Origin: Symbiobacterium sp.
Lineage (GTDB): Bacteria; Bacillota; Sulfobacillia; DUSP01; DYEP01
NCBI GenBank assembly: GCA_020725675.1
Contig: DYEP01000186.1
Location: 1-44,326, forward strand
Direction: 5' to 3'
DNA: 44,326 nucleotides
Positions within the stretch are counted from its first letter, which is position 1. The number at the start of each line of letters is the position of its first letter. Under the pieces are notes generated by a model. That model was given only the letters and a program-made list of their open reading frames with translations. It did no database searches and was not told the DNA's origin. Made by a program: the position numbers and the translations under genes. Below are positions 37,008-44,068 of this stretch, piece by piece.

Positions 37008-37050
37008 ACACCCCCCTCCCGGCCCCGCAGGGCCGGATGGAGGGGGGTGT
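37008..37050. terminator. Strong bidirectional terminator between hutU and rnfD
   Basis: ACACCCCCCT (37008-37017) pairs with AGGGGGGTGT (37041-37050), and CGGCCC/GGGCCG continues the stem inside around the CGCA loop. The genes on either side converge here. It is very GC-rich; on the minus strand it is followed by TGTTTCTTA, moderately T-rich, so both directions are plausible. Confidence 0.85.
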
Positions 37051-37064
37051 GATGTGTGCAGATT

Positions 37065-38057
37065 CTATTTCGATACTGTCTTGATCCGGATGACCGGGAT
37101 CCGCGCTTCGACGATCTGACCGAACTTCCTGGGCCGTGTCAGCGCGTCGATAAGCGGGACCAGCGGATTCATCAGCAATATGCTGAAAGCCACACCTTCC
37201 GGCGCTGCTTGGTACAGTCTGATCAGCGCCACGAGGATGCCCATGCCTATTCCGAAGATGATCTTACCTGCATCTGTAATGGGCGTAGTCACCCAGTCGG
37301 TGGCCATGAAGAACGAACCGAATACAAGCCCCCCTGCCAGTACGTGATAGAAGGGGTTCGAGCCCAGCAGCATGGTAAGGGCGAACACCGTTCCAATAGC
37401 GAACACAGGCGTTCTCCAGTTGATGTGTCCTTTAAACAGCAGGTAAAGCCCTCCGATCAGCACAGCGAGGACGGATGACTCGGCCATGCTGCCTCCAGGG
37501 TGGGCGATGAACAGGGCAGAGTAACTGGGCAGGAGCTGACCTTGGCCCAGTTTCAGCAGAGCGAGCGGGGTTGCTCCGCTGGTTACGTCTATGATCCCGA
37601 ACCGCAGGTGAAGAGGGGCCATGTCGGCATTGAGCCAGACGAACGCCGGCGCTAGAATGATCAGCGCGACTCGCCCAAATACGGCCGGGTTGAACAGATT
37701 CCATCCCAGTCCACCGCACATTTCTTTTGCTACACCCACTGCCAGGAAGGTACCGATCACTGCGAGCCACCATGGAAACGTGGGCGGCAGCGCCAGTGCA
37801 AGGAGCGTACCGGTAACGAACGCGCTAAGGTCCTCCAGGGAATGGGGCTTACCCATGAGTTTCCTCATGCCCCAAGCTGTACACGCGGCCGTGACGTTGC
37901 AGACAATCAGGATGAATATGGCGTTCAACCGGTAGAAAATGATGGAGACGATGATTATAGGTACCAGCGCCAACAGTACATCGCGCATAGCCCGTGTTAC
38001 AGTGTCTCCTGAGTTTAGGTGAGGAGGTGGGGAGTAGAGCAGATCAGGCTTTTCCAT
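37065..38057 (-). CDS. rnfD: Rnf-type electron transport complex subunit RnfD
   Basis: 330 residues, about ten membrane helices. The DVTSGATPLALL motif carries the threonine to which FMN is covalently bound in RnfD/NqrB proteins. GWNLFNPAVFGRV and the C-terminal NPLVPLIDALT further support the family. It is the last gene of the formate dehydrogenase operon, 16 bases after rnfC. rnfG, rnfE, rnfA and rnfB, which normally accompany rnfC and rnfD, are not here: a strong terminator and convergent hutU follow immediately. The role is therefore either as part of a complex whose other subunits are encoded elsewhere, or as a stand-alone membrane partner of the dehydrogenase. Confidence 0.9.
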   Translation of the reverse strand: MEKPDLLYSPPPHLNSGDTVTRAMRDVLLALVPIIIVSIIFYRLNAIFILIVCNVTAACTAWGMRKLMGKPHSLEDLSAFVTGTLLALALPPTFPWWLAVIGTFLAVGVAKEMCGGLGWNLFNPAVFGRVALIILAPAFVWLNADMAPLHLRFGIIDVTSGATPLALLKLGQGQLLPSYSALFIAHPGGSMAESSVLAVLIGGLYLLFKGHINWRTPVFAIGTVFALTMLLGSNPFYHVLAGGLVFGSFFMATDWVTTPITDAGKIIFGIGMGILVALIRLYQAAPEGVAFSILLMNPLVPLIDALTRPRKFGQIVEARIPVIRIKTVSK

Positions 38058-38073
38058 AACATTAACCCCCCTT

Positions 38074-39393
38074 CTAAGCGCGCCTGCGCCGGGCCATGAT
38101 CTCGGCCTTGGCGTTGCGGAAGAATTGGACTAACGGTCTCCTTGATGGGCACACGTACGCGCACGCGCCACACTCAAAGCAATCCAGAACATCAAACTTC
38201 TCGGCTTTGTCGTAGTTGTGCGCTTCTGCGTACATACCGATGAAGTTTGGCAAAAGGAACATGGGGCATGCCTTCACACACTTGCCGCATCGCACGCAGT
38301 TGTGCCATTTCGCTTCAGATACCATCGACTCAGGAAGAGCGACGATGCCGCTTGTTCCCTTAACAACCGGTACATCCAGGCTTGACTGAGCCCACCCGGT
38401 CATGGGACCTCCCATAATTACCTTCCTCGGCGTCTGGGAGAACCCCCCGCACTGCTCCAGCACATGAGACACGGGCGTTCCTATCCGTATCTTCAGGTTT
38501 TTGGGTTGCGCTATGCACGGGCCCGTCACAGTCAGTACTCTCTCGAACAATGGTTTACCCAGGGTTACCGCTTCAGCAATGGCCACCGCAGTACCCACAT
38601 TCTGAACCAGCGCACCCACCTCGCTGGGCAGCTTGCCGGGAGGAACTCGCCTGTCCAGGACCGCCTTGATTAGCTGTTTCTCTGCGCCTTCCGGGTACTT
38701 TACTTCAAGCGGCACCACTTCCATGTCTTGCTCTTCACCAGCTACTTCCTGCATGACCCGGATGGCGTCGGGTTTATTTGTTTCAATCCCGATGTAAACC
38801 TTGGATGCGCCCACCGCCTTTCGCGCGATATTGGCCCCAAGCACCACATCCTGAGGTCTCTCCAGCATGATCCTATGGTCGCAAGTGAGGTAGGGCTCGC
38901 ACTCGCAGCCATTGATGATCACGCTGTCGATGGGCTTGTTCTTAGGAGGAGTCAGCTTTACGTGAGTCGGGAACGCGGCGCCACCAAGCCCTACCACGCC
39001 CGCTTGCCTCACTGCCTGGCGGATATCTTCCACGTTGATATCCCTGTAATCCAGCGGGTCCTGGTCAGGTACCCAGACCTGATCCCCTTCCACTTCAATC
39101 ACGACGCTCAGCACGCGCGTGTTGTTGAAATATGGGAGCGGTTCGATGGCGACCACGTGACCGGCCACGCTGGAATGAACAGGTGCCGAGATGAACGCGT
39201 CGGAGTCTCCGATCACCTGTCCGACCGTCACGCTTTCCCCCACATTCACCTTGGGTGTGCACGGTGCTCCCGTGTGCTGATGAAGGGGGATTATCACTTG
39301 CTGCGGCAGATCGATCTGCTCTACAGGCAGGGAGTTGGTTTGCTCTTTGTACTCGGGGGGATGAATGCCCCCTGCAAAAGTCCTTGTAGCCAC
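38074..39393 (-). CDS. rnfC: Rnf-type electron transport complex subunit RnfC
   Basis: 439 residues from the GTG at 39393, one base after the stop of the upstream gene, with a G-run ribosome site. An N-terminal barrel-like region (GIHPPEYKEQT) precedes the NADH/FMN-binding core (GLGGAAFPTHVKL; INGCECEPYLTCDHRIM), a SLBB-like domain and two C-terminal [4Fe-4S] motifs: CVRCGKCVKACP and CFECGACAYVCP. RnfC is the peripheral cytoplasmic subunit that exchanges electrons with NAD(H). In this operon it is fed by, or feeds, an exported formate dehydrogenase. Confidence 0.93.
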   Translation of the reverse strand: MATRTFAGGIHPPEYKEQTNSLPVEQIDLPQQVIIPLHQHTGAPCTPKVNVGESVTVGQVIGDSDAFISAPVHSSVAGHVVAIEPLPYFNNTRVLSVVIEVEGDQVWVPDQDPLDYRDINVEDIRQAVRQAGVVGLGGAAFPTHVKLTPPKNKPIDSVIINGCECEPYLTCDHRIMLERPQDVVLGANIARKAVGASKVYIGIETNKPDAIRVMQEVAGEEQDMEVVPLEVKYPEGAEKQLIKAVLDRRVPPGKLPSEVGALVQNVGTAVAIAEAVTLGKPLFERVLTVTGPCIAQPKNLKIRIGTPVSHVLEQCGGFSQTPRKVIMGGPMTGWAQSSLDVPVVKGTSGIVALPESMVSEAKWHNCVRCGKCVKACPMFLLPNFIGMYAEAHNYDKAEKFDVLDCFECGACAYVCPSRRPLVQFFRNAKAEIMARRRRA

Positions 39394-39394
39394 G

Positions 39395-40174
39395 TTAATC
39401 CCCCCTCACTGTCTCTTGAGGCTGGTTTTGCCGGGTGCGGAACCTATTGGCGACCAATCCGAGAAATACGCCAAGCACCGCGAGGGCACGTACGGGTTTG
39501 AACGCGGTGCCCCAGACATATGCTGACATAGGTACCTTCGGCGAATCGGGCAACCCGTAAGCGGACGGCCGATCTCTGAGCACGTAAAAGACACCGAGAC
39601 CTCCCATCTCTTCAAGGCCGTAGACCCTTGCATCTCTGTATCCCGCCGCGCGGAGGTTGTTTACTCTCTTTTCTGCCTCGAGCATGAGTACGCGTCTTTC
39701 GCCGTACTGGAGTGCGCCTGTGGGACACGCCTTGACACATGCGGGTGAGAGCCCGTCGACGATGCGGTTGTAGCAGAAGTTACACTTCTTCATGGCGTTC
39801 TCTTTATGGTCGTAGCGGGGCACCGCAAATGGGCAGTTTGCTGCGCAGTAGTTGCACCCAATGCACCTGCGGTTATCGATGAGCACAGTGCCCATTTCGG
39901 TGCGGTGCGTAGCGCCGCTTGGGCAAACCGATATGCATGCAGCCTCTGTACAGTGCATGCACTGTGATTTCGCAAATAACCACTGTACTTCTCCGTTAAC
40001 TCTATGCTCCCGGAAATGCACCCGGGTCCAGGTATCATGCATGAACTTGGAAGGGTTTTCATATGTCCCCCCAAATTCTGTATTCTCAGCAGGCAGCTGG
40101 TTCCACTGTTTGCACGCGACCTGGCAAGCTCGACAGCCTATGCATTTAGTCGTATCTATGCATACCGCTCTCAC
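39395..40174 (-). CDS. Formate dehydrogenase iron-sulfur (beta) subunit, membrane-anchored
   Basis: 259 residues, FdnH/FdoH-like. Four four-cysteine sets (first: Cys11, Cys14, Cys17, Cys21 in CIGCRACQVACK; then CMHCTEAACISVCP, CIGCNYCAANCP and CNFCYNRI...CVKACP) bind four [4Fe-4S] clusters, forming the wire from the catalytic subunit to the membrane. One C-terminal helix (about 229-245) anchors it, as in FdnH. The GTG start at 40174 follows directly on the stop codon of the catalytic-subunit gene, with no spacer. The cytochrome b gamma subunit that normally takes the electrons is not in the operon; rnfC comes next. Confidence 0.93.
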   Translation of the reverse strand: MRAVCIDTTKCIGCRACQVACKQWNQLPAENTEFGGTYENPSKFMHDTWTRVHFREHRVNGEVQWLFAKSQCMHCTEAACISVCPSGATHRTEMGTVLIDNRRCIGCNYCAANCPFAVPRYDHKENAMKKCNFCYNRIVDGLSPACVKACPTGALQYGERRVLMLEAEKRVNNLRAAGYRDARVYGLEEMGGLGVFYVLRDRPSAYGLPDSPKVPMSAYVWGTAFKPVRALAVLGVFLGLVANRFRTRQNQPQETVRGD

Positions 40175-43100
40175 TTACATCACCTTCCTTATGTCGCACA
40201 GGAACACCTTGTACTCCGGTATCATGGTATTGGCATCACCGATATGGGCGGTAAGGAGGTTCGCTGCGTAGTTCTTGCTGCGGTCCTTCCCACCGGTGAC
40301 AAAACCGTTGAAACCGTAGTGCCAGGGCATTCCTACCAGTTCGTAGAACAAGCCACCCACCTTGAGAGCCTTGATTCGTTCTGTGATGCAGACCTTCGCA
40401 TACACCTCGCCGCGCGGGCTTACCACTTTCACCAGTTCGCCAGGTTTCAACCCTCGCGCTTTCGCCAGCTCGGGGCTGATCTCTACGAACATCTCGGGCA
40501 TGAGTTCGGCAAGCCACGGGAGGTTTCTGGTCATGGCCCCCGCCTGCCAGTGCTCGGTTACCCTGTAGGTGGTACCGATGAGCGGGTAGTCGGCCGAGCC
40601 GATGGCGGCTCTTGGGTTCATATCCCCTGACCAGATCTTGATCACGGGGTTGATCTGCTGAGATGACAGCATGTTCTTCACGGGGCTCTCGAAGGGTTCG
40701 TAGTGTTCAGGGAACGGACCGTCCGCGGTCCCATCGGCGAAAATGCAGCCTAAGCCCTCCACACGCATAATGAAAGGAGACTTGGCGGATACCTCTGGCC
40801 TTACATGACTGCCTGTGGCCGTCCTGAACACGAAATCAGGCACGTCGTAGGTAATCCACTGTTGACGTTCTTCATCCCACTGGACCAGCGCTTTTTGGGC
40901 GTTCCACGGAGTTCCGTTCACATCGCAGGAGGCCCTGTTATAAAGGATTCGCCTGTTGATTGGCCAGCACCAGGACCACCGCGGGTGGAGGCCAAGCCCC
41001 GACGGGTCTGAGTCATCTCTGCGCGCTGCCATGTTCCCTTCCTCGGTATACCAGCCGGAATAGATCCAGCAGCCACAAGAGGTCGAACCGTCGTCCTTTA
41101 GTGAAGCGAAGCTGGGCAATAGCCTGTGGGTAGTCAGGTCATAACCGTTTATTTCCTTCGCCACGAGGTGTACATCGGGGTGGTCCACGGAGCCGTAGTT
41201 CCACGTCAGGTCGAGAATCGGGCGGTCCTTGATGGACGTACTTCCCTGATACTTGTCTCTAATGGCTTTATACAGCAAAGATACTATTTCAAGGTCCGAC
41301 TTGGCATCCCCGGGGGGCTCAACCGCTTTATAACGCCACTGCGCCCACCGACCGCTGTTGGAGACGCTGCCCTCTTTCTCGAACGAAGCCGCTGCAGGAA
41401 GGAGGAATACTTCCGTCTTTATATCAGCAGGGTTTACCCCGGGTCTCTTCCAGAACACGGCCGTATCGGTTTCCCACAGGTCGACTGCTACCATCCAGTC
41501 CAGATTCTCAAGCGCTTTTGCTTCCTTGTTGGCGTTAGGACCGCCTACGCACGGGTTCTGACCCCAGAGAAACAGGCCCTTGATAACCCCTTCATACATG
41601 GCCTCGAATAGAGAGATGAAGGAGTAGTTGCCGCCTGCCTTCGGCAGGTAATCGTAGCAGAAGTCGTTTGCAGCTGTAGCCTTGTCGCCAAAAAAGGCCT
41701 TCATAAGCGATATGAAGAATTTGGGGAAGTTCTTCCAGTAGTTGACGCTGTCCGGATCGGCAGTCGTCGGGGTGCTGTTTTTCAGATACGTGGCCAAATC
41801 CCTGTCGGTGGCTACTGGGTAGCGCAGGTAGCCTGGAAGTATGTGGAACAGAAGCGCAAAGTCCGTCGACCCTTGGACGTTGGATTCCCCTCTCATCGCG
41901 TTCACGCCACCACCAGGGATACCGACGTTGCCCAGCAAGAGCTGGAGTATGGCATATGCCCGCACGTTCTGAGTACCTACGGTGTGCTGGGTGGTACCCA
42001 TGGCATACATGATTGTGCCGGCCTTCCCGGGCTGACTTGTGGCCGAGTAAGTCTCAGCGACCTTCAAGAACAGGTCCTTTGGGGCACCTGTTATGCGGGA
42101 CACGGTATCAGAGTCATACCGCGAGTAGTGGCGTTTTAAGAGTTGGAATACGCAGTTGGGGTCAGACAGCGTTTTATCACGCTTGGGTACTCCGTTTTCG
42201 TCCAGCTGGTAGACCCAGGAGGACTTGTTGTATGACCTTGTGCTCGGGTTGTAGCCCGAAAACAGGCCGTCATGGAACGAGAATTCGGGACTGACGAGAA
42301 AGGAGGCATTGGTGTATTCCACAACATACTCCCGGTTGAACAGGTTGTTATCCAGGATGTACTTGATCATGCCTCCGATGAAAGCAATATCGGTACCGGG
42401 CCGCAGTGGGCAGTACAAGTCAGCCTGCGACGCGGTGCGTGTGAACCGGGGATCGACCACTACCAGTTTGGCTCCGCGCTCCTTGGCTTTCAGCACCCAT
42501 TTCATAGAAATGGGGTGATTCTCCGCAGGATTGCTCCCGATTACGAGGAAGCAGTCGGAGTTGCGCAGATCGATCCAGTGATTTGTCATAGCTCCTCTAC
42601 CGAATGTGGGCGCCAGACCGGCGACCGTAGCGGAGTGTCATATACGTGCCTGGTGTTCGAGATATACCACGCCCAGAGCACGAAAAAGTTTGGAAATGAG
42701 GTAGCACTCCTCGTTGTCGAGGGCGGCACCACCTAACGATGCGATCGCTTCAGTGCGGTTTACGAGGTTACCCTGAGCATCACGGAGTATCCAATGAGCG
42801 TCACGGGTCTTCTTTACGTTTTCCGCGATCTTATTCAGCGCCCATGCCCAGTCCTTTTCCTCCCACCGGTCGCTACCTGGGGCACGATACTGGACCTTGG
42901 TCAAGCGAAGCTCATTGTTCGCTACCTGATACAGTGCGCTGCCTTTGCTGCAGAGAGAACCCTTGTTAATGGGATGGTCGGGGTCGCCTTCAGTGTTGAC
43001 GACTTTTCCCTTTTCGCTGTGAACGATGATCCCGCATCCGACTGAGCAGTACGGGCAAATGGTGGAGGTTTCCTTGGCATACCGGACCCGCGATGGTTCC

Positions 43101-43198
43101 ACCGCATGGGCTACCGCATTTACTCCCAGGGTCGACAGGGAGGCGGCGGCTATTCCCGCCCCGGATGCCTTCAAAAATTGCCTCCGAGAGATCTTCAT
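40175..43198 (-). CDS. Formate dehydrogenase catalytic (alpha) subunit, selenoprotein, Tat-exported
   Basis: 1007 residues, read through an in-frame UGA at 42640-42638 (residue 187) as selenocysteine. The flanks are exact family matches: YLEHQARI before and HSATVAGLAPTFGRGAMTNHW after, as in E. coli FdnG, so the stop is not a frameshift or decay. A twin-arginine signal (SRRQFLK) leads to a [4Fe-4S] motif (CPYCSVGCG ... CSKG) and the bis-molybdopterin domains with the NVQGSTD and GNVGIPGGGVN segments. It oxidises formate to CO2 outside the membrane. GAGAGGTG precedes the ATG at 43198. It is the second gene of the fdhE-fdh-rnfCD operon. A gene caller that treats UGA as stop would split it in two. 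Confidence 0.95.
42608..42640 (-). promoter_or_regulatory. SECIS element for the selenocysteine codon
   Basis: Right after the UGA (42640-42638) the message folds into an apical hairpin: GG (42626-42625), a bulged U (42624), CGCC (42623-42620), loop GGUCU (42619-42615), GGCG (42614-42611), CC (42610-42609). The GGUCU loop and bulged U are the same SelB-binding features as in the E. coli fdhF SECIS. It lies at the usual distance behind the UGA. Confidence 0.9.
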
Positions 43199-43227
43199 TG
43201 ATTGTGTTCACCTCTCCAAGACAGCTG

Positions 43228-43995
43228 TTATTCAGTTGTGTTGAACACTGCGAAGTACAGCGTTCTCGCGGCCTGAGAGCACTTTTGAAACCCCTCGCGT
43301 TCCGCTGCCAAATCGAGACCTATTGTCAAGAGGTCTTTCAGCGGTAAAAAGGTTTCACCGGCATCAGAAAACACAAAGGTCTTAATGTACGTATTGCACT
43401 CATGACATACTTGCACGCGGCTTGACCGGTCCCCAGGAGGATAAAAGTAACCGAGACGATCCTGCTTGTTGTTGCCACAATTCGGGCAGGTAAGCCTGGG
43501 GAAGGCCCATGAATGACCGCACAGCCAGCAGTGCAGATGCCGGGCGCCACCTTCATCAATCGTGGCCAAATATGGCTTTTGGCCGCAAACGGGGCATGCG
43601 TCCCCCGAATCCGGTGCATCTATCACCTCCTTCCTGAAGGCGTGGAAATATGGCACTAACGCCAGCATGATACAAGAGTCCGCAAGTGCTTCATCCGGGC
43701 CGTGGCATGATCCTTCCGACAAGAGTTGCCGAATCCTCATGGGTTTTACGTCTATATACTGGCTTACAGAGCACGCATTTGCGATAGAATTCACAAGCTC
43801 TCGAAAAGAGGGTTCGGGGATCTGATTGAGCGGGTCGTCACTGGTATTCATGACGCCATGCGCGCCCAAAAACACCCGCTCTTGCAGCCGGTACACCTCG
43901 GCATATCTGGCAAGATACGGTGCTTTTGCCTTCTCTTTGTTCAGGCGGTCACGAACTAGCCGATTAAAAAAACCATCGAACCCGTCATCAAACAT
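43228..43995 (-). CDS. fdhE: Formate dehydrogenase accessory protein FdhE
   Basis: 255 residues from the ATG at 43995 (GAGGTG six bases upstream; GTG at 44004 is also in frame). Four zinc-ribbon-like pairs mark the family: CPVCGQ, HCWLCGH, CPNCGN and CHECN. FdhE binds the immature catalytic subunit and is needed for maturation and Tat-dependent export of respiratory formate dehydrogenases. It is the first gene of the operon, 29 bases before the catalytic subunit. Confidence 0.93.
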   Translation of the reverse strand: MFDDGFDGFFNRLVRDRLNKEKAKAPYLARYAEVYRLQERVFLGAHGVMNTSDDPLNQIPEPSFRELVNSIANACSVSQYIDVKPMRIRQLLSEGSCHGPDEALADSCIMLALVPYFHAFRKEVIDAPDSGDACPVCGQKPYLATIDEGGARHLHCWLCGHSWAFPRLTCPNCGNNKQDRLGYFYPPGDRSSRVQVCHECNTYIKTFVFSDAGETFLPLKDLLTIGLDLAAEREGFQKCSQAARTLYFAVFNTTE

Positions 43996-44068
43996 GAATC
44001 CCACCTCTTAACACTTTCTTCTACACAACTTTGCATTTCCCTTCCCAAATATTGCAGAATTCCAACAG

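Follow-up and report, generated by a model that had tools for sequence, protein, structure and literature searches.

A formate dehydrogenase operon with RnfC and RnfD in place of the cytochrome b subunit in Symbiobacterium sp.: a probable transmembrane formate/CO2:NAD(H) oxidoreductase

Introduction

In the Rnf complex (RnfCDGEAB) of Acetobacterium woodii, electrons pass from RnfG to the covalently bound FMN of RnfD (attached at T156), then to a riboflavin (N123, D249) and finally via the clusters and the FMN of RnfC to NAD+ (PMC11889175). The structure names the three RnfD residues T156, N123 and D249 as cofactor sites. N123A/D249A in RnfD abolish growth and activity, and the authors find no Na+ transport by RnfD (PMC11889175). 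The operon described here codes for RnfC and RnfD with every tested cofactor residue, and it shares with the Rnf complex the outside-to-inside leg from RnfD via RnfC to NAD+. Unlike in the Rnf complex, RnfG, RnfA, RnfE and RnfB are missing from the locus (the host has E, A and B on another contig), the outer partner is the Fe-S subunit of a molybdoenzyme, and RnfD belongs to a separate clade.

Formate dehydrogenase-N (FdnGHI) is similar in having a Tat-exported selenocysteine protein FdnG, an anchored FdnH and an FdhE-like helper. Here, however, RnfC and RnfD are found instead of the cytochrome b FdnI (PF01292), and the predicted end point is NAD(H), not menaquinone.

Two further types of systems are related. 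In the NQR/RNF-like two-gene systems, an RnfD/NqrB-type protein is proposed to carry electrons between NAD(P)H and the outside (PMC8238504, PMC10979944). There, the RnfD-like protein is fused to a PF00175 NAD domain, is accompanied by an FMN_bind protein and lacks the flavinylation threonine, while the present locus has a separate RnfC, retains the threonine and codes for a formate dehydrogenase. MetVF-RnfC2 of A. woodii is a precedent for an RnfC homolog recruited outside Rnf as an NADH module, but it is soluble, has no RnfD and involves another enzyme (PMC8578096). In searches of the open-access literature, no formate dehydrogenase-RnfCD unit was found described. A genome in the literature that has rnfC, rnfD and two rnfG genes as its only rnf genes, together with a Tat-exported formate dehydrogenase, was interpreted as that of an Rnf-containing acetogen (PMC6295475).

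Operon structure and gene assignments

The window, which is the whole stretch of DNA analyzed (44,326 nucleotides), corresponds to contig C169 of the host assembly (2.56 Mb, 253 contigs, 99% complete). On its minus strand, genes for an FdhE-like protein, FdnG, FdnH, RnfC and RnfD follow each other with gaps of 29, 0, 1 and 16 bases and are terminated by a strong hairpin. Gene calls, family profiles and the hairpin fold confirm the order, coordinates, gaps and terminator given in a preliminary description made from the sequence. The features are as follows.

43228..43995, minus strand: fdhE-like accessory gene, with zinc-ribbon FdhE central and C-terminal domains (Pfam FdhE_central/FdhE_C)
40175..43198, minus strand: fdnG, Tat-exported selenocysteine formate dehydrogenase catalytic subunit, 1007 aa (TIGR01553, TAT_signal)
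42638..42640, minus strand: in-frame TGA, selenocysteine codon, FdnG residue 187 (alignment)
39395..40174, minus strand: fdnH, four-cluster Fe-S subunit with C-terminal transmembrane anchor (TIGR01582; aligns to 1kqf chain B)
39440..39493, minus strand: predicted C-terminal membrane anchor of FdnH, residues about 228-245 (sequence VRALAVLGVFLGLVANRF)
38074..39393, minus strand: rnfC, NADH/FMN and 2x[4Fe-4S] subunit (TIGR01945)
38149..38298, minus strand: two-cluster region of RnfC, Cys 366, 369, 372, 376, 405, 408, 411 and 415 (alignment)
37065..38057, minus strand: rnfD, membrane subunit, covalent FMN (outside) and riboflavin (inside) (TIGR01946)
37689..37691, minus strand: RnfD Asn123, riboflavin ligand (A. 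woodii N123), 24/24 RnfD sequences of this type
37569..37571, minus strand: RnfD Thr163, predicted FMN attachment (A. woodii T156), 24/24 RnfD sequences of this type
37296..37298, minus strand: RnfD Asp254, riboflavin ligand (A. woodii D249), 24/24 RnfD sequences of this type
37008..37050, no strand assigned: terminator hairpin between the convergent genes rnfD and hutU (fold)

The hairpin folds with -40.6 kcal/mol (z -5.3); it has only a short T-run and was missed by a terminator consensus scan. The first gene starts at 44004 or at 43995, the latter being the better ATG with AGAGGTGG ahead of it. Its product had been called FdhE. The FdhE domains are present, but the score against TIGR01562 is weak (56 bits, cut-off 188), and we therefore use the name FdhE-like. 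Most homologous clusters likewise begin with such a gene.

FdnG (1359 bits against TIGR01553, cut-off 814), RnfC (564 bits against TIGR01945, cut-off 246) and RnfD (280 bits against TIGR01946, cut-off 207) are above their family cut-offs. FdnH reaches 240 bits against TIGR01582, which is below the cut-off (335) but still the best family, and its alignment to 1kqf chain B includes the anchor region. Beside the operon there is no gene for RnfG, RnfE, RnfA, RnfB or a cytochrome b.

A frameshifted or broken fdnG was considered and rejected, the in-frame TGA being a selenocysteine codon. The same alignment column has selenocysteine in E. coli FdnG and cysteine in L129, L132 and L134. Because Rfam gave no match within the operon and the fold 3' of the TGA is not clearly better than shuffles (z -0.9), this assignment is drawn solely from the alignment. 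The features of FdnGHI that are found here are the FdnG/FdnH pair, the Tat signal, the Sec/Cys site and an anchored four-cluster FdnH.

Cofactor sites of RnfD and RnfC

All eight cluster cysteines of RnfC are conserved in 23/23 sequences of the type found here (module sequences) and in 43/43 canonical sequences; RnfC matches A. woodii RnfC (9eri_C) with 467 bits. An AlphaFold model of RnfD (mean pLDDT 78.8) has 9eri_D as its best match (TM 0.81/0.84). RnfD carries PF03116 only, without a fused PF00175 NAD domain, and the operon has no FMN_bind gene. Only a few positions separate module from canonical RnfD and RnfC. The conserved cofactor residues of RnfD and RnfC and the match of the RnfD model to 9eri_D lead us to infer that FdnH is able to replace RnfG at the outer face.

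Conservation of the module and its phylogeny

The preliminary description had asked whether the gene order is conserved, and it is. FdnGH and RnfCD are linked in 16 genomes, with the same order in 13 and with the same content in rearranged order in three; rnfG/E/A/B and fdnI are not alongside. This recurrence rules out an assembly accident or chance neighbors.

Among the genomes reached through RnfC, five (L013, L014, L030, L036, L043) have FdnG-FdnH-RnfC-RnfD and one (L026) has RnfC-RnfD-FdnG-FdnH, and most of the remaining RnfC matches with sufficient flank belong to rnfCDGEAB-type operons of the ordinary kind. Across 61 related genomes, RnfD exceeds 300 bits in seven apart from the host: L129-L133 have the same order, L134 has FdnG-FdnH-RnfD-RnfC, and L135 has RnfCD with a PhsA-like enzyme. 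A sample of 399 genomes from the phylum adds L207 and L208, which have the same order, L212 (RnfC-RnfD-FdnG-FdnH), L213 and L214 (PhsA-like enzymes with RnfCD) and L209, L210 and L211, in which an FdnH-like protein and RnfCD are encoded with no catalytic gene alongside. These last three loci are a point against the explanation that we favor. Some clusters begin at a contig end, so that FdhE or part of FdnG is out of view. The term PhsA-like denotes for L135 the best NCBIfam match, which is below that family's cut-off, and for L213 and L214 the same gene layout together with Pfam molybdopterin domains. In total, the RnfD type of the module occurs in 23 genomes, two of which (G458, G459) were read over the RnfC-RnfD stretch only.

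L214 also codes for a 1007-aa protein (L214:6992-10015) in which [FeFe] hydrogenase domains precede RnfC domains, adjacent to RnfD, an Fe-S subunit and the PhsA-like enzyme. RnfCD of the same clade also accompanies PhsA-like enzymes, and in one case RnfC is joined to an [FeFe] hydrogenase in a single protein, so that the pair can be viewed as a conduit of general use between inside and outside.

Trees were computed by a quick method with SH-aLRT support only. Module RnfD sequences form one side of a single branch that separates them from 50 others (SH-aLRT 93), and shuffles were never as clustered. Their nearest outsider is from Dethiobacter (L015). A first RnfC tree joined the two longest branches, probably falsely; when rebuilt without both, it shows the same division between module and canonical sequences, except that Dethiobacter is found among the module sequences. 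In the RnfD tree, the catalytic partner switches at least four times. FdnH sorts by partner (RnfCD, cytochrome b or other) with 4 changes, compared to about 20 in shuffles. The Dethiobacter locus (L015:8225-13696) codes for RnfG-RnfC-RnfD and for MenA-like, Rex-like and cytochrome b proteins; its RnfD has the motif SKASP, with the flavinylation threonine replaced by serine.

FdnI-like cytochrome b is encoded in 10 of the best 30 FdnH loci of the phylum, so that RnfCD is one among several membrane partners of FdnGH. RnfCD might also be merely co-transcribed, with no physical link, while FdnGH passes its electrons to another membrane partner. Some FdnGH operons of the phylum have no recognized membrane gene alongside, which would fit, but we consider this very improbable given the recurrent linkage with rearranged order, the separate RnfD clade and the FdnH lineages that track their partner. 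The proposal of the preliminary description that FdnGH recruited RnfCD as its membrane partner is supported by the linkage in 16 genomes, the RnfD clade and the partner-specific FdnH lineages.

Two side observations concern other arrangements. FdnGH operons with neither a recognized cytochrome b nor RnfCD alongside occur in L242, L243, L244, L252, L253, L257 and L258; in L252 and L253, a different membrane protein is encoded downstream. A third, divergent RnfD-like type is found in L227, L231, L232 and L233, from genomes related to that of L013. Two of these loci were read, L231 and L233, and both have it as an orphan (about 280 aa) beside phosphate-transport-like and rhodanese-like genes.

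Other electron transfer genes in the host genome

The absence of RnfG/E/A/B holds beside the operon but has to be corrected for the genome, which carries another rnf set. Contig C241 encodes a second RnfC and most of a second RnfD; C186 has the end of an rnfD, followed by rnfE, rnfA, rnfB and apbE. The ends of the two contigs overlap by about 74 bases with few mismatches, so these genes may belong to two operons or to a single one that was divided by strain variation. Between rnfD and rnfE no rnfG is seen, and no fdnI was found in the host genome. Operons of the type (C-)D-E-A-B-apbE with no recognized rnfG between D and E are represented by L006/L007 (the host's own C186 and C241), L138, L141 and L144. 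The host also codes for a 510-aa RnfG-like protein with four FMN_bind domains (L146:301-1833, on its contig C168), near a fumarate-reductase-like flavoprotein and NuoL-like proteins.

Three observations had been named as speaking against recruitment: a second Rnf with its own rnfC and rnfD, a separate fdnI, and a lack of conservation in related genomes. Only the first of these was found.

As the preliminary description had considered, the module might dock to an Rnf core encoded elsewhere. RnfCD of the module would then replace ordinary RnfCD on RnfA/E/B(G), and formate electrons would enter the ion-pumping complex or reduce ferredoxin. RnfA/E are indeed present in 23/23 genomes with the module RnfD type (in one only as a sub-threshold fragment at a contig edge). 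Fisher tests of this co-occurrence, which take no account of kinship, give p values of 0.003 (phylum sample) and 0.0008 (class sample). The association could equally reflect a shared need for ApbE, which is encoded in the host rnf operon. Moreover, the host already has ordinary rnfC and rnfD with its core, RnfD and RnfC of the module are deeply separate from the canonical ones, and the [FeFe] hydrogenase-RnfC fusion brings its own inner partner. We thus regard docking as unlikely, if the least so of the alternatives considered.

A cytochrome b encoded at another locus and serving FdnGH was also considered and rejected. The sole PF01292 protein of the host genome belongs to a [NiFe] hydrogenase operon.

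The end point of the pathway had been left as NAD+ or menaquinone. In the menaquinone case, RnfD would reduce the quinone in the way in which NqrB, its homolog, reduces ubiquinone. Besides this homology, the cytochrome b adjoining the [NiFe] hydrogenase genes hints at some quinone use despite the missing markers, and a MenA-like prenyltransferase adjoins the sister RnfG-RnfC-RnfD cluster of Dethiobacter. However, the quinone site of NqrB is formed by N-terminal helices that RnfD lacks (PMC12174285), and there would be no need for an RnfC that keeps its clusters and FMN domain. Furthermore, the MqnA/D marker PF02621 was found in 0/16 genomes and MenD over its cut-off in 0/18, controls responding in both cases; the search covered these two markers only and would miss scavenged precursors or an unknown route. 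A formate:quinone oxidoreductase is accordingly very improbable, and NAD(H), with the residues of the path to NAD intact, is favored.

Proposed mechanism and direction

It is likely that the operon codes for a membrane-bound formate dehydrogenase in which RnfC and RnfD take the place of the cytochrome b subunit, resulting in a transmembrane formate/CO2:NAD(H) oxidoreductase. The physical FdnGH-RnfCD complex and the contact between FdnH and RnfD are inferred. FdnGH would be located outside of the membrane, with FdnH in the role of RnfG, exchanging electrons in either direction with the outward covalent FMN of RnfD. RnfD, using its riboflavin, would move electrons across the membrane to RnfC, whose clusters and FMN would connect them with NAD(H) in the cytoplasm. 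Neither heme nor quinone would be required. As RnfA/E, the Na+-pumping part in the A. woodii model, are absent, coupling would come solely from electrons crossing the membrane potential.

The standard potentials (E0') are -432 mV for CO2/formate and -320 mV for NAD. At ordinary potentials, NADH oxidation inside would drive the conversion of CO2 to formate outside; the reverse would be possible at high formate and low NADH. With two charges moved and 150 mV assumed, NADH-to-formate is exergonic in 17/18 computed conditions (by 3 to 38 kJ/mol), the direction depending on all of these assumed values. This charge bookkeeping makes formate oxidation outside feeding NAD+, as previously suggested, less likely than NADH-driven formate formation, to which we give a modest preference. 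The neighborhood, with hut and branched-chain-amino-acid-type transport genes, is indicative of amino acid degradation and agrees circumstantially with this direction.

Implications

The recurrence of the pairing in 16 diverse genomes points to an undescribed, probably cytochrome-free electron route between NADH inside and formate outside. A more far-reaching reading, which we hold to be somewhat less probable than not, sees a whole undescribed family of transmembrane oxidoreductases that work without cytochromes and quinones. RnfCD would be their swappable module in the membrane, serving exported molybdoenzymes of the FdnG or PhsA type, and the inner partner would be NAD(H) or an [FeFe] hydrogenase. 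In the formate dehydrogenase version, electrons from NADH would be driven onto CO2 outside by the membrane potential, providing formate for syntrophic partners. The module may also offer another reading of the genome attributed to an Rnf-containing acetogen (PMC6295475).

These results suggest that Rnf is divisible and that its RnfCD half would serve as a reusable membrane conduit. They bear on the question of how anaerobes that live close to thermodynamic equilibrium get rid of NADH in the form of formate. The module would connect NADH in the cytoplasm directly with formate outside, drawing on the membrane potential and needing no cytochrome, no quinone and no formate channel.
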